A stretch of 64,000 bases of DNA from Actinocorallia herbida (GTDB taxonomy: Bacteria > Actinomycetota > Actinomycetes > Streptosporangiales > Streptosporangiaceae). The stretch is taken from assembly GCF_003751225.1 (NCBI RefSeq), contig NZ_RJKE01000001.1:1364001-1428000 (forward strand), given 5' to 3'. Under the pieces are notes generated by a model. That model saw only the letters and a program-made list of their open reading frames with translations. It made no database searches and was not told where the DNA came from. Below, in pieces: positions 20,895-57,314 of this stretch (its first letter is position 1; each line of letters begins with the position of its first letter). The position numbers were made by a program, and so were the translations under genes.

Positions 20895-21344
20895 CCGCGG
20901 GCCGCGACCGCGGTCCCGCGTAACACCCCTGAAACGCCTGATTTACGGCGGTTTCGAGGTCCCGGAGGGCTCCCCGGCAGGGTGAGACCTGTGTCACCCT
21001 CCGGCAAAAGCCCGCTTCACCAGGGCTTACCTGGGCGTGGTCATCTTTGCGGGGCATTTGCCTTTCGCTGTTTCTTTGGTACCTTCGAGTTGAAGGCAGC
21101 GTTATCCGAACGTTGCCGACCGGTGGCTCCACCCAGGAGCCCCCCGTGGTACCCAGCCGACCAGCCTGATCCGAGAGCCGGTGTCTAGGACGACACCCGA
21201 GCCGCGCAGTGAAGCGTAGGACAGTGCGATCTGAGCCCTTTTGAGGGCGTCGGCGTCACCGACAAATCAACCCGCAGTCGTGCGGTCGAGCGGCGGACTC
21301 ATGTCTCCGCCCTCCTCGGGCCCCATCACGCCCTCCGCCACGGC
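20895..21344. other. Long 5' region before the first c-di-AMP riboswitch
   Basis: About 450 bp with no gene. It should hold the promoter for the riboswitch-controlled hydrolase. A T-rich stretch at 21055-21090 (GGGGCATTTGCC, TTTCTTTGGTACC) is the least GC-rich part and a reasonable promoter candidate, but I cannot place -10 and -35 boxes with confidence. Confidence 0.4.
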
Positions 21345-21526
21345 CAACGCCGAGTCCGCGCACGCGCGGAGCCGGGGACCCAACCCGCAGGCACCCCGAA
21401 CCACCCCCAAAGGGTTCGAGCCATGCCCGCGGAGGGGTTAATCGGCCGGTCGCTCCCCAAAGCGACAGGTCGTAGGGCACTTCTCCACTTCCGCCCGCAC
21501 CCGACAGCTAACCCGGTAGGCGTATG
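21345..21526 (+). ncRNA. c-di-AMP riboswitch (ydaO/yuaA class), copy 1
   Basis: The aptamer blocks are readable in order: CGCCGAGTCCGCG, GGAGCCGGGGACCCA, GGGGTTAATCGG, GTCGTAGGGC, and CAGCTAACCCGGTAGGC at the 3' end. This is the conserved core of the ydaO riboswitch, which binds cyclic di-AMP and usually switches its gene off. It ends about 16 bp before the start of an NlpC/P60 hydrolase. The 5' boundary is approximate. No separate terminator stem is obvious, so translation control is possible. Confidence 0.9.
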
Positions 21527-21542
21527 GAAGAAGGAGATTCCC

Positions 21543-22103: not shown

Positions 22104-22202
22104 GCCACGGATCCGACCCACGGCCGATCCCTCCCGGGATCCGCCGCGAGCCTCATCAGTCAAATGCACGCGGGATCGGCCCTCGAACATGGGGGCCGTC
22201 CT

Positions 22203-22338
22203 CCCGCCGAGTCCGCGCCCAGCGCGGAGCCGGGGACCCACTCGCCGATCAGCGATCGGCACGGGGTGAATCGGTGGCTTGCCACCGTAGGGCTATTCCA
22301 GGCCCGAATCCGTCAGCTAACCCGGTAGGCGGCATGGA
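22203..22338 (+). ncRNA. c-di-AMP riboswitch (ydaO/yuaA class), copy 2
   Basis: CGCCGAGTCCGCGCCCAGCG, GGAGCCGGGGACCCA, GGGGTGAATCGGTGG, CCGTAGGGC and GTCAGCTAACCCGGTAGGC occur in order, a near-consensus ydaO aptamer. The 3' edge is about 20 bp before the start of a CHAP-domain protein. It shares its blocks with copy 1 located 860 bp upstream. Confidence 0.93.
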
Positions 22339-22358
22339 AACAGGAGTTGAAGCAAACT

Positions 22359-34968: not shown

Positions 34969-35586
34969 ATGTCTGAGAGCCAGGACAAGCCGGTCGCGGG
35001 CGAGCGGGGCAAGCTTCCCCTGCCGGATGCCGACCCGCAGCCCGCGCCGATGCCCGAGGCGCCCCTCGCGTCCGAGCAGCCGCCGCCCGCCCCCATGCCG
35101 CCGCCCCCGCCCGGACCGCCCGCGCCCCCGGTGCCGCCGCAGCCGGGCCCGCCGCCGTTCCCGCCCGTCGGGCACCAGGCCCCGCCGCCGCCTCCGCCGT
35201 TCCGGCCGGAGGGTCCGGTCGCGGGCGGCCCCGGGCGTCCGCCGGTGGCGGCGCGGGTGCGCGCGATCCTCACCCCCGGCCTGCTGTCCCTGGTGGGCGC
35301 GGGCCTGCTCGGCGGCCTGGTCGGCGGCGGCGTCGTGGCCCTGGCGGCCGGGGGCGACGACGACCACGAGGTCATCCGCGTCCAGTTCGACCCGCGCTGG
35401 GACCGGGGCGGCTTCTCGGGCAGGGGCGAGTGGGGAGACCGGGGAGACCGGGGCGACCGGGGCAGCGACTGGTACGTGCCGGATCAGGTGCCGTTCCCGG
35501 TGCTGCCGCAGATGCCCGACGAAGGCCCGGTGCAGCCCTCGCCGGCCACTCCGGCCCCGCCGATCACCCCGTCCCCGTCGTCCTGA
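34969..35586 (+). CDS. Proline-rich single-span membrane protein
   Basis: A 205-residue protein. Residues 20-95 are largely Pro and Ala (PPPPPGPPAPP), residues about 105-130 form one membrane span (LLSLVGAGLLGGLVGGGVVALA), and the outside part has GDRGDRGDRG followed by a Pro-rich tail. No enzyme motif is visible. It overlaps the 3' end of the convergent FtsH-like gene by 23 bp. It lies between the MacS and MacR genes but any link with them is only positional. Confidence 0.65.
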   Translation: MSESQDKPVAGERGKLPLPDADPQPAPMPEAPLASEQPPPAPMPPPPPGPPAPPVPPQPGPPPFPPVGHQAPPPPPPFRPEGPVAGGPGRPPVAARVRAILTPGLLSLVGAGLLGGLVGGGVVALAAGGDDDHEVIRVQFDPRWDRGGFSGRGEWGDRGDRGDRGSDWYVPDQVPFPVLPQMPDEGPVQPSPATPAPPITPSPSS

Positions 35587-37975
35587 GGCCGGGCACCGGC
35601 AGCGTCAGCGTCACGCCGGTGTGTCCCTCATGGGCGGTCACCGCGGCCTGGTGGTAGTGCTCCAGGCTGCGCTGGAACTCCGGCCTCGTGTAGACGGTCC
35701 CGTCCACGAGCGGCCCCTGCCTGCCGTCGATGACGGCGATGACGTCGTCTCCGGTCAGGGTCTTGTGCGCCTCCAGGGCGTGCGCCACGGCGAGGACCTC
35801 CAGGCGGCTCTCGGCGAGGATCTCCTCGGCCTTGGCCAGGAGGTCGGCGAGCATCTTCTCGATCCGCTCGCCGAGCCGTCCGGACGGCGCGTCGCCGCCG
35901 CCCTGCTTCGGCACGGCGACGGCGACCCCGACCGGGCCGCCCTTGGCGTCGGGCGTGCCCGGGCCGATGCCGAGCGCCTGGAGCGCGGTGAGCGAGGAGA
36001 CCCCCGCGCCCATGCCCCAGTACGCCTCCATCAGCGCCGCGACGGTCGTCGCGGACTCCAGGTCGCCCGACACGCCCGAGGAGTTGTCCTCGCCGAAGAA
36101 CATGCGCTCGCCCGCGAGCGAGGCCAGCGAGACGAGGATGTCGGCCTCGTACTCGCTGCGCCAGCGGGTGAACTGGTCCTCGGGCTTGATGCTGGCGACC
36201 ATGCCCAGGTAGTCGCTGCCCTTCTCGATGGTCGCGACGTCGATCTCCAGATGGCGCCGGGTCCGGTAGGCCATGACGGCGTGGCACGCCTCGTGCACGG
36301 CGACCGCGTGCCGCTCCCGCTCGATGTACTCCACGTCCTCGGGCGGGCCGAGCTGCTTGAGCCGCTTGGCCCGCATGACGTCGGCCCAGGTGATGACCTC
36401 GCGGCCCTCGCGGATCGCGGCGATGAGCGACTCGTTGACCAGGTCCTTGATGGTCGCGCCCGTCGCGTACGGGGTGACGACGGCGAGCTTGTCGAGCTGC
36501 TCGTCGGTCAGCTCGTGGGCGACCTTGGCGAAGTAGCCCTTGTAGGTGCGCAGGCGGCCCGCCTTGGACGGGTAGCCGACCTTGTAGATCCGGTCGATGC
36601 GGCCGGGACGCAGGAGCGCCTCGTCCAGGGCGGTCGGCAGGTTCGTCGCCATCATGATGAGGATGCGGTACTTGGGCGGCGGCTTCGGGCGCATGCCCAG
36701 CGCGCGGCGCACATGCCGGTTGACGAAGCCGCGCGGTTTCTTCAGGCCGGACATCTCGGTCAGAAGGGCCTGGAGGGTGCCCATGTCGCCGCCTCCGCCT
36801 CCGCCCATGCCCATTCCGGCGACGACCTTGTCCTCGATGCCGCCCCGGGCCGCCGCCCCGCCCGTCACCAGGACCTGGCGGGTGTGCTCGGACAGGTAGT
36901 GGCCGCCGTGGCAGCCGCTCGCGGCGCCGAACCCGGGCTGGCCGAGGGGGCCGCCGCCGCTCGGCAGGGAGCGGCGGCCGAGCGAGTCGGCCTCGTCGAA
37001 GAAGACGATGACGCCGCCGTAGCGCAGCGCGAGCTTGCGCAGCTTGCGGAACAGGCCCTTGACCTTGAGCACGCCGATGCCGAAGAACATGTTGATGAAC
37101 GCGCCGGGGTCGACGAACACGTACGGCCGGCCCGTCTCGCCCGCGACCGCCTCGGCCATGAGGGTCTTGCCGGTGCCGGGCGGGCCCCACAGCAGGATGC
37201 CGCCGGGCACGTAGCCGCCGCGCTCCTCGATCCGGTCGGGGTCCTCCAGGTAGAGGATGTTCTCGCGGACCCGCTCCAGCACATGGTCCTGGCCCCATAC
37301 GTCGGTGAAGCGGGTCTTGATGTCGTCGGGGTAGTAGACCTCGACGCCGCCGCGCGACAGGAACCAGAAGATCGCGACGAACTGGCCGACCGCGATGAGC
37401 ATGATGAAGACGATCTGGAGCACCATCGGCATGGCGTTCCACAGCAGCGCGGGCACCTCGAACAGGGCGAGGACCGGCGAGGTGTCGCGGGCCGCGCCGA
37501 TGACGACGGCGATGATCGCGATCCAGCACAGCCAGGTGAGGATCCGGCCGACGCGAAAGCGCGTCCAGGGGCTCAGCCGGCGCTGCGACTGGCGCTCGAA
37601 CCCGCCGAAGAAGCGCTCGGTCCAGAACCGGTGGTAGCCCGACCACCGCTCGCTGACGAGGTAGTGCGTCTGCCGGACGAGTTCGACCACCGCGATCGCG
37701 TACAGCCAGGCCGACGCGGCGTGCCGTTCGCGGGCGGCGTCGCCGAACGGCAGCAGCGGATTGTCCGCCATCGCCGCCCAGACCAGGACGAACCACAGCA
37801 CGGTGAGCATCAGCAGGTATTTCACCCTGTCGAACAGGGCCATCCGCTTGCGGACGGGCCCCTTCGGCCGCGTCCCGGTCTCCCGCTCCGGTTCGGACTC
37901 CGCCGCGACCACCGCGTCGGGGGCGTCCTCGGTGACGGGGGCGGGCCGGCCGCCCCCTCCGCGCCGAAAGATCAT
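35564..37975 (-). CDS. FtsH-like membrane AAA ATPase and zinc metalloprotease
   Basis: An 803-residue protein with four membrane spans in the first 210 residues (two are usual in FtsH). The AAA module has GPPGTGKT (about 263-270), VIVFFDEAD (Walker B) and ATNLPTALDEALLRPGRIDR (second region of homology). About 120 residues separate Walker B from that region, including a Gly-rich loop (GMGMGGGGGG), an insertion absent in standard FtsH. The protease part has AVHEACHAVMAY, an HExxH zinc site near 560, and GDLESATTVAALM with the third ligand Asp. It should unfold and degrade membrane proteins. It begins 1 bp after the lipoprotein stop. Confidence 0.82.
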   Translation of the reverse strand: MIFRRGGGGRPAPVTEDAPDAVVAAESEPERETGTRPKGPVRKRMALFDRVKYLLMLTVLWFVLVWAAMADNPLLPFGDAARERHAASAWLYAIAVVELVRQTHYLVSERWSGYHRFWTERFFGGFERQSQRRLSPWTRFRVGRILTWLCWIAIIAVVIGAARDTSPVLALFEVPALLWNAMPMVLQIVFIMLIAVGQFVAIFWFLSRGGVEVYYPDDIKTRFTDVWGQDHVLERVRENILYLEDPDRIEERGGYVPGGILLWGPPGTGKTLMAEAVAGETGRPYVFVDPGAFINMFFGIGVLKVKGLFRKLRKLALRYGGVIVFFDEADSLGRRSLPSGGGPLGQPGFGAASGCHGGHYLSEHTRQVLVTGGAAARGGIEDKVVAGMGMGGGGGGDMGTLQALLTEMSGLKKPRGFVNRHVRRALGMRPKPPPKYRILIMMATNLPTALDEALLRPGRIDRIYKVGYPSKAGRLRTYKGYFAKVAHELTDEQLDKLAVVTPYATGATIKDLVNESLIAAIREGREVITWADVMRAKRLKQLGPPEDVEYIERERHAVAVHEACHAVMAYRTRRHLEIDVATIEKGSDYLGMVASIKPEDQFTRWRSEYEADILVSLASLAGERMFFGEDNSSGVSGDLESATTVAALMEAYWGMGAGVSSLTALQALGIGPGTPDAKGGPVGVAVAVPKQGGGDAPSGRLGERIEKMLADLLAKAEEILAESRLEVLAVAHALEAHKTLTGDDVIAVIDGRQGPLVDGTVYTRPEFQRSLEHYHQAAVTAHEGHTGVTLTLPVPGLRTTGTG

Positions 37976-39558: not shown

Positions 39559-40500
39559 ATGCTCCTTGCCGACACGGACTCCGGCGCCACCTGGGGGATC
39601 GAAGGCCCGACCTTCCTCGCCCTCTACGCGGGATGCGCCCTGATCATCCTCGTGATCGTGCTCCTGCTGCGCAGGTCGAGCACGGCGGGAACCGAGGTGA
39701 CGGGCAGCCTCCCGCACGCCGAGCTCGCCTACCTCGTCGGCGGTGAGGCCCGCGCGGTGGCCGCGAGCCTCGCCGCGCTGCGGCTCGCCAGGTCGGTCGA
39801 GGCGGCCCCGGGCGGGCGGGTCATCGCGACGGGCCCCGCGCCCGCCGGATCACCGGCCCTGGACCTCGCGGTCCTCGCCGCCGCCGTCCCCGGGGCGCGG
39901 GTCGCCGACCTCCGGCGCCGCGCGGAGGTGGCACACGAGCTGAACCGGGTGCGGGCCTCGCTCGAGGCGCACGGCCAGCTCCTCAGCCGCGCGGACCGGC
40001 GGCTGGTCCGGATCACCGCGCTGCCCCTGGCACTGCTGTGGGCGTTCGGCGTCGCGCGGCTGATCGCCGGTTCGGCCAACGGGCGGCCCATCGGCCTCCT
40101 GCTCTTCGCGCTCGCCGTGCTCGGCGTCGTCACCGCCGTCCTCTTCCTCCGGGCCCCGAGGCGGACCAGGGCGGGCACGCGGTCCGTCACGAACTCCGCG
40201 AGCCGGTACCGGGCGCTGCACCCGACGCTGTCCCCGTCCTACGCCGACTACGGCCCCGAGGCCGCGGCGCTGGCCGTCGCGGTGTTCGGCGCGTCCGCGC
40301 TGATGAGCTTCGACCCGGTGTTCGCCGCAGAGGCCGAGATGCACCGCTACCTGGGCCGGGACGCGGCGGCGTCGGGGTCGTCCTCCTCCTCGTCATCGTC
40401 GTCCTCGTGTTCCTCGTCGTCCTCTTGCTCCTCCTCGTCGTCCTCGTGCTCCAGTTCGTCGTCGTCCTCGTGCGGGGGCGGCGGCGGATGCGGCGGCTGA
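39559..40500 (+). CDS. TIGR04222-type membrane protein with Ser/Cys tail (candidate MNIO substrate 1)
   Basis: A 313-residue protein. The N terminus (ATWGIEGPTFLALY) and overall plan fit the TIGR04222 membrane proteins. Spans lie near 17-37, 152-172 and 177-197. Residues 225-262 (SPSYADYG, AAALAVAVFG, FDPVFAAEAE) are shared with the next two genes. The tail from 272 is almost only Ser and Gly with five cysteines (284, 290, 297, 305, 311) at spacings of 6-8, ending CGG. Serine codons in the tail are mixed, arguing against simple repeat slippage. GAAGGGAGG precedes the ATG. The tail is a likely site of cysteine modification by the nearby MNIO enzyme. Confidence 0.82.
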   Translation: MLLADTDSGATWGIEGPTFLALYAGCALIILVIVLLLRRSSTAGTEVTGSLPHAELAYLVGGEARAVAASLAALRLARSVEAAPGGRVIATGPAPAGSPALDLAVLAAAVPGARVADLRRRAEVAHELNRVRASLEAHGQLLSRADRRLVRITALPLALLWAFGVARLIAGSANGRPIGLLLFALAVLGVVTAVLFLRAPRRTRAGTRSVTNSASRYRALHPTLSPSYADYGPEAAALAVAVFGASALMSFDPVFAAEAEMHRYLGRDAAASGSSSSSSSSSSCSSSSSCSSSSSSCSSSSSSSCGGGGGCGG

Positions 40501-40660
40501 CCGGGAACCCGCCGGGGACACCGCGCATCAAAGACGGCAAGACCCGACGAGCCTGACGGGAACCGGCCTTCCGGACCTTCGCGAAAGCCGGGCCGTCCGG
40601 ACGAGGCGGTCATGACGGACGATGATGCCGCCCGCCGGCATCGAGACGGGAGAGTGCCCG

Positions 40661-41584
40661 ATGGTCCTCGCCGAGACGGGCTCCGAAGCCACCTGGGGGA
40701 TCGAAGGCCCGGCCTTCCTCGCCCTCTACGTGCTCCTCGCCGCTCTGGCCGTCGCCCTGGTGGTCGCGCTGCGCCGCGGGCCGGCCGCGGGCGTCTCCAT
40801 GCCGGGTGACCTCACGCCCCCCGAACTCGCCCTCCTCGCCGGAGGCGACCACCGCGCCGTCGCGGCGAGCCTCGCCGGGCTGCGCCTCGCCGGCGCGGTG
40901 GCCTCCGCCCCCGGCGGCAAGGTCCTCACGACGGGTCCGGCCCCGGCCGGGGCGGCGCCGCTCGACCACGCCGTGCTCTACGCGGCGGGCGCCGGGATCC
41001 GCTCCGGCGACCTGGTCCGGCAGCCCGCGGTCGCGCACGAGCTCGCCGCGGTGCGGGCGGCGCTGATCGCGCGCGGCCAGCTCCTCGGCCCCGCCGCGCG
41101 GAACTCGATCCGGCTGCGCGCGCTGCTGCTCGTGCCGGTGCTGCTGCTCGGCGCCGCCCGGGTGGCCGCGGGCATCGGCGCCGAACGGCCGGTCGGGCTC
41201 ATCGCCGCGGTCCTGGTGGTCCTGGCCGTCGTCACCGCGGTGATGCTGGCGCGGGCGCCCGAACGCGCGCGGGCCGCCGACCACACCGTCGCGATCGCCC
41301 GGCAGCGCCTCGAAGGACTGCATCCCACCAACGCGCCCTCCTACGCCGACCATGGGTCCTCCGCGGCGGCCCTGGCCGTCGCGGTGTTCGGCGGCGCGGC
41401 CCTCATCGGCATGGACCCGGCGTTCGCGGCCGAAGCCGACCTCAGGACGCAGCTCCACCAGTACTCGGCGACCTCGGCCTCGAGCGGTGGATCCTCGGAC
41501 TCCTCCGGCTCCTCCTGCTCGGGCGGGTCCTCCTGCGGCGGAAGCGGCGGCTGCGGAGGCGGCTGCGGAGGGTGCGGCGGGTGA
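40661..41584 (+). CDS. TIGR04222-type membrane protein with Gly/Ser/Cys tail (candidate MNIO substrate 2)
   Basis: A 307-residue paralogue of the previous gene, similar over its whole length (EATWGIEGPAFLALY, GGDHRAVAASLAGLRLA, TGPAPAGAAPLDHAVL). Spans lie near 17-37, 152-172 and 177-197. The shared block is at 225-262 (APSYADHG, AAALAVAVFG, MDPAFAAEAD). The tail from 270 holds five cysteines (286, 292, 298, 302, 305) in Ser/Gly and again ends CGG. I start at ATG 40661 because GGGAGAG precedes it and it aligns with the paralogue; an earlier ATG at 40622 adds 13 residues. It overlaps the next gene by 4 bp. Confidence 0.83.
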   Translation: MVLAETGSEATWGIEGPAFLALYVLLAALAVALVVALRRGPAAGVSMPGDLTPPELALLAGGDHRAVAASLAGLRLAGAVASAPGGKVLTTGPAPAGAAPLDHAVLYAAGAGIRSGDLVRQPAVAHELAAVRAALIARGQLLGPAARNSIRLRALLLVPVLLLGAARVAAGIGAERPVGLIAAVLVVLAVVTAVMLARAPERARAADHTVAIARQRLEGLHPTNAPSYADHGSSAAALAVAVFGGAALIGMDPAFAAEADLRTQLHQYSATSASSGGSSDSSGSSCSGGSSCGGSGGCGGGCGGCGG

Positions 41585-41928
41585 CCGTCGTCGGGCTGAT
41601 CTTCACGCTCATCGTGCCGGCCTGCGTGCTCGGATACCTCCTCCCGTACGTACCGCGCGCGGCGCGGCGGGCAGGCCGGGCCGTCCAGGAGCGCGCGCAC
41701 GAGCGCCGGGCGCTGGACCCCGCGTCGTCGCCCGCGTACGCCGGCCACCCGCCCGCCGAGGTCGGGCTCGCGGTCGCCCTGTTCGGCGGACCCGCGCTGT
41801 TCGCGCTGGACCGGGACTTCGCCGCCCGCGCCGGGGTGGCGCGGCGGCTCGGCCAGTACCCTTCCCAAGGCTCCTCCTCGTCGGGTTCGGGCTGCGGGTC
41901 TTTCGGATGCGGGGGGTGCGGCCTGTGA
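41581..41928 (+). CDS. Short membrane protein with Cys tail (candidate MNIO substrate 3)
   Basis: A 115-residue protein with one N-terminal span (2-22), then residues 51-85 that repeat the block seen in the two larger proteins (SPAYAGHP, VGLAVALFGG, LDRDFAARAG), then a tail with three cysteines (105, 110, 113) in GSGCGSFGCGGCGL. It lacks the central domain of the larger paralogues, so the block plus tail are what selection keeps. GTG at 41581 overlaps the preceding stop as GTGA; GTG 41572 is an alternative. Its stop overlaps the MNIO GTG, again as GTGA. Confidence 0.78.
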   Translation: MTVVGLIFTLIVPACVLGYLLPYVPRAARRAGRAVQERAHERRALDPASSPAYAGHPPAEVGLAVALFGGPALFALDRDFAARAGVARRLGQYPSQGSSSSGSGCGSFGCGGCGL

Positions 41929-42740
41929 GCGGACCGGGCGTGGGGATCGGATGGCGGCCGGAGATCGCGGAGTTCGTCGGGGGGCTGCCCGGACTCACCT
42001 TCACCGAGGTCATCGCCGAGTCGCTGCACCACCCCGACCCCCGGCTGCTCGCGCTGCGGGACCGCGGGGTGCGGGTCGTGCCGCACGGGGTGCGGCTGTC
42101 GCTCGGCGGCGCGGAACCCGTCGATCCCGGGCGGATCGCCCATCTCGCGCACTGTGCGGAGCTCGTCCGGGCCCCGCTCGTCAGCGAGCACGTCGCGTTC
42201 GTGCGGGCGGGCGGGCTGGAGGCCGGGCACCTGCTGCCGGTGCCGCGCAGCCGCGACTCCCTGGACGCGCTGGTCCGCAACGTCAAGGCGACCACCGCCG
42301 AGCTCGGTGTGCCGCTCGCGCTGGAACCGATCGCGGCGCTCTTCGACTGGCCCGACGACGAGTTCGGCGAGGGCGAGTTCCTCACCGAGCTGGTCGACCG
42401 GACGGGCGCGCTGCTGCTCCTGGACGTCGCCAACGTGTACGCGAACGCCCGCAACCGCGGCCACGACCCCGTCCGGGTGCTGGAGTCCTTCCCGCTGGAC
42501 CGCGTCGCCTACTGCCATGTCGCGGGGGGCCGCGAAAGCGAAGGGCTCTACCACGACACGCACACCGACCCCGTCCCGGCCGAGGTGCTGGCCCTCGTCG
42601 CGGAGGCCGAGCGGCGCTGCCCGCCCGAGGGACGGCTCGGCCACCTCCTGGAGCGCGACGGGCGCTACCCGCCGCCGTCCGTCCTCGCCGCCGAACTCGA
42701 CGCCATCGCCGACGCCGCCGGCCTGTCCCGGATCACCTGA
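41925..42740 (+). CDS. DUF692 multinuclear non-haem iron enzyme (MNIO)
   Basis: A 271-residue TIM-barrel enzyme of the MbnB/DUF692 family, which modifies cysteines in ribosomal peptides. Conserved stretches: GVGIGWRPEI at the N terminus, PHGVRLSLGG (54-62), VSEHVAF (86-92), LALEPIAALF (Glu134), LLDVANVYANARN (167-177), YCHVAGG (His198), HDTHTDPV (211-216) and LERDGRYP (Glu243). The usual EN and AGH signatures read EP and AGG here. It overlaps the Cys-tail gene upstream by 4 bp and is followed 9 bp later by a partner gene, as in known MNIO pairs. Confidence 0.88.
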   Translation: MSGPGVGIGWRPEIAEFVGGLPGLTFTEVIAESLHHPDPRLLALRDRGVRVVPHGVRLSLGGAEPVDPGRIAHLAHCAELVRAPLVSEHVAFVRAGGLEAGHLLPVPRSRDSLDALVRNVKATTAELGVPLALEPIAALFDWPDDEFGEGEFLTELVDRTGALLLLDVANVYANARNRGHDPVRVLESFPLDRVAYCHVAGGRESEGLYHDTHTDPVPAEVLALVAEAERRCPPEGRLGHLLERDGRYPPPSVLAAELDAIADAAGLSRIT

Positions 42741-42749
42741 GGAGGCCGG

Positions 42750-43184
42750 ATGGACGAGTCCTTCGCGGACCTCGCCGCCCGCCAGGAGGCCCTCGTGCGC
42801 GCGCTCGTCGCGGGCGCCGACCTGCCCGCCGGCTTCATCGCGCCGCACGTCGACGCCGCGGCCCGCGCCCTCCTGCGCAAGAGGTTCGGCGAGGTCCTGC
42901 ACCCCTGGCCGGCCCTCGTCCTGCACCGCGAGGAGTACCTGTGCTGGGCCGCGGGCCGGCCCACCCGCGGCTCCTGGCTCGACGGCTGGGACTTCGCCCG
43001 CGCCCACCGGGCGGCCCTCGCCCCCGAAGCCCGCGCGGCCCTCGCCGTCCGCGAAGCCCTGTGGCACTACCCTCCCGCGGGCGCCTCCGACGCCCGCCCC
43101 CGCCGCGCCCCGGCGCTGCGCTTCTTCCCGGGCGGCCTTGTCCTCGCGGCCTTCACGAAGGCGCGGGTCTTCGGCCGGGCCTAA
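42750..43184 (+). CDS. Small partner protein of the MNIO enzyme
   Basis: A 144-residue protein beginning MDESFADLAARQEALVRALV, with RALLRKRFGEVLHPWPALV in the middle and a C-terminal LRFFPGGLVLAAFTKARV. It resembles the small domain (DUF2063 or SCO6045-like) that accompanies actinobacterial DUF692 enzymes and is thought to bind the precursor and present it to the enzyme. GGAGG lies 5 bp before the ATG. It is the last gene of the cluster. The exact family is inferred mainly from position and rough similarity. Confidence 0.72.
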   Translation: MDESFADLAARQEALVRALVAGADLPAGFIAPHVDAAARALLRKRFGEVLHPWPALVLHREEYLCWAAGRPTRGSWLDGWDFARAHRAALAPEARAALAVREALWHYPPAGASDARPRRAPALRFFPGGLVLAAFTKARVFGRA

Positions 43185-55944: not shown

Positions 55945-57041
55945 CGGGTCTCCACGGGGGCGAAACGGGCTGCGGTGAAGGGGCGGGCCACCTCGGGCAG
56001 GTCCCCGCCCGCCAGCACCCCGGCGACGGCGTCGGCGGTGAGCGGGGCGAGCAGGATGCCGTTGCGGTAGTGGCCCGTGGCGTACACCAGGCCCTCGGTC
56101 CCCGAACGGCCGAGGATCGGGGCGTTGTCGGGGGAGCCGGGGCGGAAGGACGCCTTGACCTCGGCGAACTCCAGCTCGGTGACGCCCGGGAAGAGCGCGC
56201 GGGCGTCGCGCAGCAGCTCCCAGAGGCCGCCCGCGGTGACCCGGCCGTCGAACCCCAGCTCCTCCTGGGTGGCGCCGACGACCAGCTCCCCGTCGGGGCG
56301 GGGCACGAGGTACATCGAGAAGCCCTGGACGAGGCCGCGGGTGGCGCGGGTGAGGAACGGCCGCGGCGAGCGCAGCCGGATGATCTGGCCCTTGACGGGC
56401 CGGACGGGCAGGTCGTCGAGTCCGCCCGACCAGCTCCCGGCGGCCAGGACGACCTGGTCGGCGGCCAGCACCGTGCCGTCCTCCAGCCGGACGCCCTTGG
56501 CGCGGCCGCCTTCGACGACGATCTCCCGCGCGCGCTGCCGGACGATGGGCACGTCGGCGCAGGCCTGGAGAAGGGCGGCGAGGACCTTGCGCGGGTCCAC
56601 GCTGCCGTCGTCGGGCGCGAGGATTCCGCCGCGCACGGACGGGGCGAGCATCGGCTCGAGCCCGCGGCACTCGCGTCCGGTGAGGAGCTCGGTGCGCAGG
56701 CCCAGGGACGCCTGGAACTCGTGCTGGTCGCGGAGGAAGGCGAGGTCGTCGCCGTCGTAGGCGACCGAGAGGTTGCCCTCGCGCTGGTAGCCGACGTCGA
56801 TCCCGGTCAGCTCGCGCAGCTCGGCGGCGAACGCCGGGTAGCGGTCGCGCGAGTCGATGCCGAGCATCAGATGGTCTTCCTCGCCGTACTGCAGCTCGCC
56901 GACGGGGGTCAGCATCCCGGCCGCGACGTGGCTCGCGCCCGACCCGGGCGCGGGGTCCACGAGGGTGACGGACAGGCCCCGCTGGGCCGCCCGCCAGGCG
57001 ATGCCGAGGCCGACGACCCCGGCTCCGATGATCACGATCAA
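55941..57041 (-). CDS. thiO: Glycine oxidase ThiO
   Basis: A 366-residue FAD enzyme that oxidises glycine to dehydroglycine for thiazole formation. IVIIGAGVVGLGIAWRAA is the FAD-binding start; HVAAGMLTPV, ILAPDDGSVDPR, RPVKGQIIRL and TGHYRNGILLAPLTA are typical. The start is TTG (GGGAG about 9 bp upstream, which is inside the riboswitch 3' end); GTG two codons later is an alternative. Confidence 0.93.
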   Translation of the reverse strand: MIVIIGAGVVGLGIAWRAAQRGLSVTLVDPAPGSGASHVAAGMLTPVGELQYGEEDHLMLGIDSRDRYPAFAAELRELTGIDVGYQREGNLSVAYDGDDLAFLRDQHEFQASLGLRTELLTGRECRGLEPMLAPSVRGGILAPDDGSVDPRKVLAALLQACADVPIVRQRAREIVVEGGRAKGVRLEDGTVLAADQVVLAAGSWSGGLDDLPVRPVKGQIIRLRSPRPFLTRATRGLVQGFSMYLVPRPDGELVVGATQEELGFDGRVTAGGLWELLRDARALFPGVTELEFAEVKASFRPGSPDNAPILGRSGTEGLVYATGHYRNGILLAPLTADAVAGVLAGGDLPEVARPFTAARFAPVETR

Positions 57042-57049
57042 GCGCGTTC

Positions 57050-57138
57050 GCTCCCTTCGCCGGCATGACCCGGATCAGGTTCCTACGGTCGGGAGCCGCG
57101 CGCTCCCCTCTCAGCCCCCGCGGGGGCTCCCGTGCCTT
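57050..57138 (-). ncRNA. TPP riboswitch (THI element)
   Basis: On the minus strand: CACGGGAGCCCCCG, GGGGGCTGAGAGGG, GACCGTAGGAACCTGATCCGG and GTCATGCCGGCGAAGGGAG. These are the conserved P2/P3 and P4/P5 arms of the thiamine pyrophosphate aptamer. The 3' arm includes the GGGAG used by thiO, so ligand binding probably hides the ribosome site. Confidence 0.96.
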
Positions 57139-57314
57139 CGCCACCAGCGTATGCCCTGAGCAGCAATCATGAGATATCCGGCATCCCTGTGCAGAACGCC
57201 GTTCTTCGCGACGGCTATGGTGGCGGCACCTTGCCGGTCCGGCTATGACTGGATCCGGCGAACGGCCGTCATCCGGTCCCGAGGCCGGTCTGTGGGTGTC
57301 GTGGAGGGTTTTGC

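Follow-up and report, generated by a model that had tools for sequence, protein, structure and literature searches.

Among described systems, the closest to the one considered here are clusters of Actinomycetota that combine TIGR04222 proteins, an MNIO (DUF692) enzyme and a PME-type 2 partner. Antoine et al. (2025; PMC12452194), in the passages used here, propose that subsets of TIGR04222 proteins bearing Cys tails are MNIO substrates with PME-type 2 partners, and state the product and role of the clusters as open. For the enzyme TglH, the cited part of PMC10880893 gives nine iron-binding residues (H71, H107, E151, D184, N187, H216, D229, H231 and E258). Here we describe a cluster of five genes, A to E, in a 64,000-nucleotide stretch of the Actinocorallia herbida genome (contig NZ_RJKE01000001.1, positions 1,364,001 to 1,428,000; hereafter the window). 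By translation, the cluster spans window positions 39559-43184, entirely on the + strand. It is a real conserved module and belongs to the class already proposed in print. We suggest that its MNIO enzyme and partner are dedicated to modifying the Cys tails of carrier proteins that face the cytosol, an explanation that, taken as a whole and judged by sequence comparison, is likely.

The original prediction, made from the DNA letters, described three membrane proteins with Ser/Gly/Cys tails (5, 5 and 3 Cys), a DUF692 enzyme and a small partner, with 4, 4 and 9 bp of overlap or spacing at the last three junctions, and translation bears out both the arrangement and the junctions (Table 1). The B/C and C/D junctions are 4-bp GTGA overlaps, D and E are 9 bp apart, and A and B are separated by 160 bp; the two overlaps and the short D/E gap fit a single transcript. 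The description of the three membrane proteins holds for A and B, which are members of TIGR04222 (133 and 112 bits, cut-off 43), but C reaches 31.3 bits, below the cut-off, and because its match is confined to profile positions 165-228 it is better called a truncated relative than a full member. Of the transmembrane (TM) segments it retains one, the last, with a further Cys inside it, followed by the pre-tail segment and the tail. Gene D matches PF05114 at 246 bits (cut-off 25), and gene E has no Pfam or NCBIfam match at E-values up to 1. In the host's own 9.8-Mb genome, profile searches find MNIO once and TIGR04222 three times, always at this cluster.

The association recurs well beyond the window. 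In a sample of 120 genomes of the window's family, the window's included, MNIO is found in 49 genomes (57 matches) and a TIGR04222 match in 73. With TIGR04222 matches under 40 bits dropped, 42 MNIO matches at 41 loci have a remaining TIGR04222 match (40 bits or more) within 6 kb, the two numbers differing because the MNIO of G119 matches in two pieces and is counted twice. The co-occurrence that had been proposed as a check was thus found in related genomes, at 41 loci with the window's among them, and it is more than chance. The partner lies directly downstream of MNIO at 41/41 TIGR04222-linked loci, as against 1/15 unlinked MNIOs (L086, where no Cys tail was found alongside on the coding strand). 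A second sample, 197 genomes of the class of which four, the window's included, belong to the family, gave 39 partner matches, all adjoining an MNIO on the same strand. There, 39 of the 44 MNIOs have the partner and 31 have a TIGR04222 match within 6 kb, and all five partnerless MNIOs are without such a match at that distance. Eight class-sample MNIOs have the partner and no nearby TIGR04222 match: three adjoin a short single-TM Cys-tailed protein (L153, L161, L163); G213, G223 and G155 encode a Cys-tailed TIGR04222 protein elsewhere in the genome; and in G224 and G136 no Cys-tailed candidate was found. A named sample, collected with the partner profile itself and overlapping the family sample, extends the range: the best 80 of 93 loci come from Micromonospora, Catellatospora, Pseudonocardia, Nocardia, Rhodococcus, Frankia, Gordonia, Phytohabitans, Streptomyces and others, and 77 of these 80 have an MNIO, two of the other three starting too near a contig end.

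The tails follow the same association. A Cys tail was called, by a threshold of our own setting, when the last 60 residues held at least 3 Cys with a G+S+C fraction above 0.4 (in the named sample, at least 3 Cys in the last 45 residues and 0.55). Among 93 of the 97 TIGR04222 proteins of the family sample, four having been dropped since their frames ran off the fetched stretch, 52/53 MNIO-linked proteins carry such a tail vs 2/40 unlinked ones (Fisher 1.7e-22). The one linked protein that falls short (G064) has 2 Cys in its last 60 residues, and both unlinked Cys-tailed exceptions come from genomes that have an MNIO. Cysteine makes up 259 of 3913 tail residues vs 23 of 12634 domain residues. 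Linked tails hold 3-9 Cys, with Gly next after Cys in 217/257 cases and only 10 Lys or Arg among the 2301 residues of the last 45 positions; in the gene A tail, Ser follows three of the five Cys. In a pooled set of 127 TIGR04222 matches, all 72 Cys-tailed rows come from MNIO genomes, and none of the 26 rows from MNIO-less genomes has a Cys tail. The best 80 of 93 named loci include 68 with TIGR04222, of which 61 pass the tail threshold; L266 has 3 tail Cys by eye without passing, five (L233, L234, L248, L253, L274) have 2 tail Cys, and in L252 the tail continues in another frame. A tail without a TIGR04222 match is present at L240, L261 and L263. Six of the same 80 have an MNIO with neither tail nor TIGR04222; five of them (L225, L241, L244, L246, L254) begin less than 1 kb from a contig end, and the sixth, L279, is from Streptomyces. 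At L140 (G239), a 65-aa open reading frame (ORF) at -236 to -38 from the start of the MNIO match encodes an 8-Cys Ser/Gly tail; lying behind a TIGR04222 match, it may reflect a change of frame or be a small peptide in its own right.

Gene D is predicted to have its iron ligands intact. The residues matching the nine ligands of TglH are H54, H89, E134, D167, N170, H198, D211, H213 and E243; seven were placed by direct alignment with TglH, and H54 and E243 by alignment with 3bww together with spacing. Among the partnered MNIO rows long enough for alignment, eight of the nine positions are invariant (75/75) and N170 is kept in 74/75. The best NCBIfam model for D is BufB (NF050167), at 167 bits far under the 310-bit cut-off. 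In a quick tree of 87 MNIO sequences, made after four of 91 segments (200 residues or less) had been dropped, one change separates the 75 partnered from the 12 unpartnered enzymes. The partnered MNIOs may thus form a distinct enzyme group, a weakly supported split that is unsure because the branch parting them has a support of 70 and several branches are long. Other MNIO genes of the family genomes (L034, L039, L040, L042, L062 and others) have neither such a partner nor a nearby TIGR04222 match, and several of them show an ENITYY or ENIAYY motif. The AlphaFold2 model of gene E (mean predicted local distance difference test score, pLDDT, 85.5) has five helices, and no winged domain is seen in it. 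Gene E follows the MNIO gene and has no Pfam signature and a helix-rich N-terminal domain, features of the PME-type 2 class, within which short proteins such as E fall according to the part of PMC12452194 used here; it probably belongs to that class and lacks an RRE domain, and a structural link to the DUF2063-like NGO1945/TglI is no more than a possibility.

The tail quite probably lies on the cytosolic face of the membrane, a placement favoured by charges, hydropathy and the AlphaFold2 model as well as by the homology with GPP34 and DUF2207_C. In the TIGR04222 proteins, the mean number of Lys plus Arg is 0.61 before TM1, 4.09 after TM1, 0.35 between TM2 and TM3 and 7.24 after TM3, and median hydropathy is 2.51, 2.28 and 2.28 for TM1 to TM3 and 1.36 for the pre-tail segment, a pattern that favours three TMs with the N-terminus out and the C-terminus in. 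The model of gene A (mean pLDDT 85.7) has three TM-length helices and a winged-helix/GPP34-like domain, and its pre-tail segment is broken into helices of 11 and 7 residues. The comparisons drew on set A1 (40 of 41 relatives plus the window's) and set A2 (44 of 49 relatives plus two window proteins). The TIGR04222 alignment matches the GPP34 profile at 86% over 89 columns (reversed control 0.1%) and the DUF2207_C profile at 83% over 162 columns (reversed control 2.2%), and a structural alignment with GOLPH3 covers residues 48-267. Gene A itself has no Pfam match to PF05719 (GPP34) at E-values up to 1; PF05719 matches occur in 5/46 members of set A2 (best E-value 2.7e-6), and two members examined score 18.5 and 18.2 bits (cut-off 29.1). 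The GPP34 homology rests on profile-profile and fold comparison. Similar tails occur on three-TM, single-TM and apparently TM-less carriers: L153, L161, L163, L240 and L263 encode single-TM carriers whose TM is followed by Arg-rich sequence, and the carrier next to the enzyme at L176 bears a tail of this kind yet shows no TM-like segment (L149 is just at the threshold).

Table 1. Genes and cysteine-bearing tails of the cluster, in window coordinates.
Feature	Position	Strand	Details
Gene A, TIGR04222 membrane protein	39559..40500	+	313 aa; poly-Ser/Gly tail with 5 Cys
Gene A tail, low-complexity, proposed modification target	40375..40497	+	model pLDDT mostly <50
Gene B, second TIGR04222 membrane protein	40661..41584	+	307 aa; Ser/Gly tail, 5 Cys
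Gene B tail, low-complexity, Cys-bearing	41468..41581	+	from translation
Gene C, truncated TIGR04222 relative	41581..41928	+	GTG start; 115 aa; 3-Cys tail
Gene C tail, Cys-bearing	41866..41925	+	from translation
Gene D, MNIO (DUF692, PF05114) enzyme	41925..42740	+	GTG start; 271 aa
Gene E, small helical partner protein	42750..43184	+	144 aa

We propose that the MNIO and its short helical partner would oxidatively modify tail cysteines, mostly in a Cys-Gly context, and that the targets would be the disordered C-terminal tails of cytosol-facing carriers. In the window these carriers would be the two three-TM TIGR04222 proteins, with a predicted layout of TM1, winged-helix/GPP34-like domain, TM2-TM3 hairpin, C-terminal helices and tail, and the one-TM truncated version. 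The tail would then be presented on the cytosolic face, the expected place of MNIO action. We consider it quite likely that the substrate is the tail, given the co-occurrence, the confinement of Cys to the tails, the swapped carriers, the distinct enzyme group and the constant partner. Since the identified recurring neighbours include neither a protease nor an exporter, the modified tail probably stays attached to its carrier, a step to which we give somewhat better than even credence. More tentatively, the MNIO may equip a GPP34-like resident protein with a lasting array of oxidised cysteines, tethered to the membrane and facing the cytosol, which would be a prosthetic group encoded in the peptide; no natural product would be involved, and the tail would be a modular cassette moved between three-TM, one-TM and TM-less carriers. 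As to the product, one guess, somewhat unlikely to be right, is a group of the thiooxazole or thioamide type with a role in soft-metal binding or redox sensing.

Several observations weigh against this proposal, and some of them would suit other explanations. The cited passages of PMC12452194 place the tail outside the cytoplasm from predicted topology and AlphaFold2 models; a tail modified in the cytosol would then cross the membrane and serve as a bufferin-like metal sink outside. Bufferins carry Sec signal peptides, the pre-tail segment has a hydropathy of 1.71 in A and 1.84 in B, and TM-like segments in the 46 proteins of set A2 number four in 9, three in 29 and two in 8, so a fourth TM may be present in single TIGR04222 members. 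In addition, one segment of L132, a short carrier grouped with the TM-less ones, stands at 1.91, a segment of L172 reaches 1.79, the profiles of DUF2207 and GPP34 show no match to one another (2.2%), and an AlphaFold2 model carries no membrane orientation. An extracytoplasmic tail nevertheless seems improbable to us in view of the charges and median hydropathy, the broken pre-tail segment of the model, the Arg-rich stretch after the TM in single-TM carriers, the carrier without a TM-like segment at L176, and the GPP34 and DUF2207_C homology, which suggests a single globular unit facing the cytosol. Another reading has the tail released. In this case the system would be a ribosomally synthesized and post-translationally modified peptide (RiPP) proper, its tail modified, cut off and released as a metallophore-like peptide, with the membrane protein acting as its leader and docking site. 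RiPP precursors are the substrates of other MNIOs, and the linked tails differ in length, most of them ending in Cys-Gly-Gly-like motifs. The recurring neighbours that were identified, from a scan of one representative of each flanking context, are housekeeping genes or a regulator, namely phosphoenolpyruvate carboxykinase (PEPCK), UppS, PhoH, a response regulator, phosphofructokinase (PFK) and ThiI; they include no protease and no exporter, several recurring ORFs being outside this identification. The suggestion in the original prediction that the peptide might be cut off its membrane protein thus gains no support, and we think release of the tail a poor prospect.

The substrate itself can also be questioned, chiefly from the large genus g85, perhaps Streptomyces, where 10/14 loci have no Cys-tailed carrier adjoining the enzyme and partner: four have an adjoining Cys-tailed TIGR04222 protein, eight only a form without tail Cys, and two none. 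In four of the ten tail-less genomes, and in one g85 genome with a local tail, additional TIGR04222-like proteins encoded away from the locus have one Cys in their final stretch; a search with one such protein matched 4/14 g85 genomes, its own included. In the pooled set, 13/81 MNIO-linked TIGR04222 rows fail the tail threshold, and the MNIO of G119, whose neighbouring tails are intact, is matched as two overlapping pieces in different frames. A FastTree tree, with matches under 150 residues left out, offers on its supported branches 3 contrasts in MNIO presence and 6 in linkage; the tail follows the former in 0.7 and the latter in 3.0 on average, neither significant and never in the opposite direction; because independent contrasts are few, the raw 52/53 vs 2/40 overstates the case. 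The MNIO might accordingly modify some other protein or peptide, leaving the tails as unmodified Cys-rich metal-binding or protein-interaction tails. We hold this to be unlikely, since all 72 Cys-tailed rows fall in MNIO genomes and none of the 26 rows from MNIO-less genomes is tailed, and since G213, G223 and G155 carry their Cys-tailed TIGR04222 protein away from the MNIO and partner. The claim that the tails are the substrate is supported by comparison; in g85 the substrate may be another. The notion that the tails are an artefact of low-complexity GC-rich DNA, grown by triplet slippage with incidental Cys, has the poly-Ser codon runs of gene A in its favour, and a single base change turns Ser or Gly into Cys in the genetic code; it is largely refuted by comparison and is very improbable indeed, as such tails are found only in MNIO genomes and the last 30 residues are free of Cys in 4/4 Gly-rich TIGR04222 tails that come from family genomes lacking an MNIO. 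These same four tails end in Asp or Glu.

The tail-less TIGR04222 proteins beside MNIO and partner in g85 (L131, L136, L143, L145-L148, L151) have two Cys in the first TM region, as read from printed N-terminal stretches, a possible alternative substrate site. Around the cluster in the window lie a LuxR-type response regulator gene upstream and phosphofructokinase and ThiI genes downstream. Among the 41 family loci, PEPCK is upstream in 27, and UppS and PhoH are downstream in 26 and 19; the window-type context recurs with the response regulator in 10 and PFK in 9. Given these recurring flanking contexts, the module looks like an old chromosomal resident. The window also encodes an FtsH-like AAA/M41 protease at 35564-37975 (-), about 1.6 kb upstream of the cluster on the opposite strand, with a Gly/His-containing stretch between its AAA parts. 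Farther away are two cyclic di-AMP riboswitch aptamers about 650 bases apart, at 21338-21538 and 22195-22346 (+), and a thiamine pyrophosphate riboswitch aptamer at 57035-57143 (-).

Should the tail be cytosolic and remain attached, the reach of MNIO chemistry would widen from small peptides and exported metallophores to resident cellular proteins, and a hunt for secreted products would overlook the modified tail. The varied carriers and conserved partner would also offer a small, testable three-component system in non-pathogenic actinobacteria. TIGR04222 proteins share profile homology with GPP34/GOLPH3 and DUF2207_C, and with GOLPH3 also structural similarity; they differ in adding TM1, the TM2-TM3 hairpin and the Cys tail, although DUF2207 also has TMs. 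We know of no report of GPP34/GOLPH3 or DUF2207_C domains as MNIO substrates.

Compared with the 3-thiaglutamate system TglHI, gene D matches the same nine iron-ligand positions, but Asn73 of TglH corresponds by spacing to V56 in D (Val in 68/75 partnered rows), and substrate and partner are not the same. The bufferins (BufA/BufB/BufC, DUF2282-MNIO-DUF2063) likewise encode a Cys-containing substrate, an MNIO and a partner together, and of the NCBIfam models BufB gives D its highest score; however, D is far below the BufB cut-off, and in Pfam neither a match of A-C to DUF2282 nor one of E to DUF2063 turns up. The clusters of PMC12452194 resemble ours most, with the same families, the idea of a C-terminal Cys-rich substrate and the short-partner class, so that of the earlier judgement that the system is undescribed only the product and role, stated as open in the cited passages, still apply. 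A cytosolic tail and single-TM or TM-less carriers appear neither in those passages nor in the literature searched, a search mostly outside subscription papers. What the comparison appears to add is the distinct enzyme group, the constant partner, the modular tail and the cytosolic side, amounting to a sharper and in part different mechanism. The passages of PMC12452194 place the tail in the periplasm, whereas we argue for the cytosol, and they report PME-type 2 proteins in at least 10% of TIGR04222 clusters, many seemingly partnerless, whereas here the partner accompanies 41/41 linked loci of one family.

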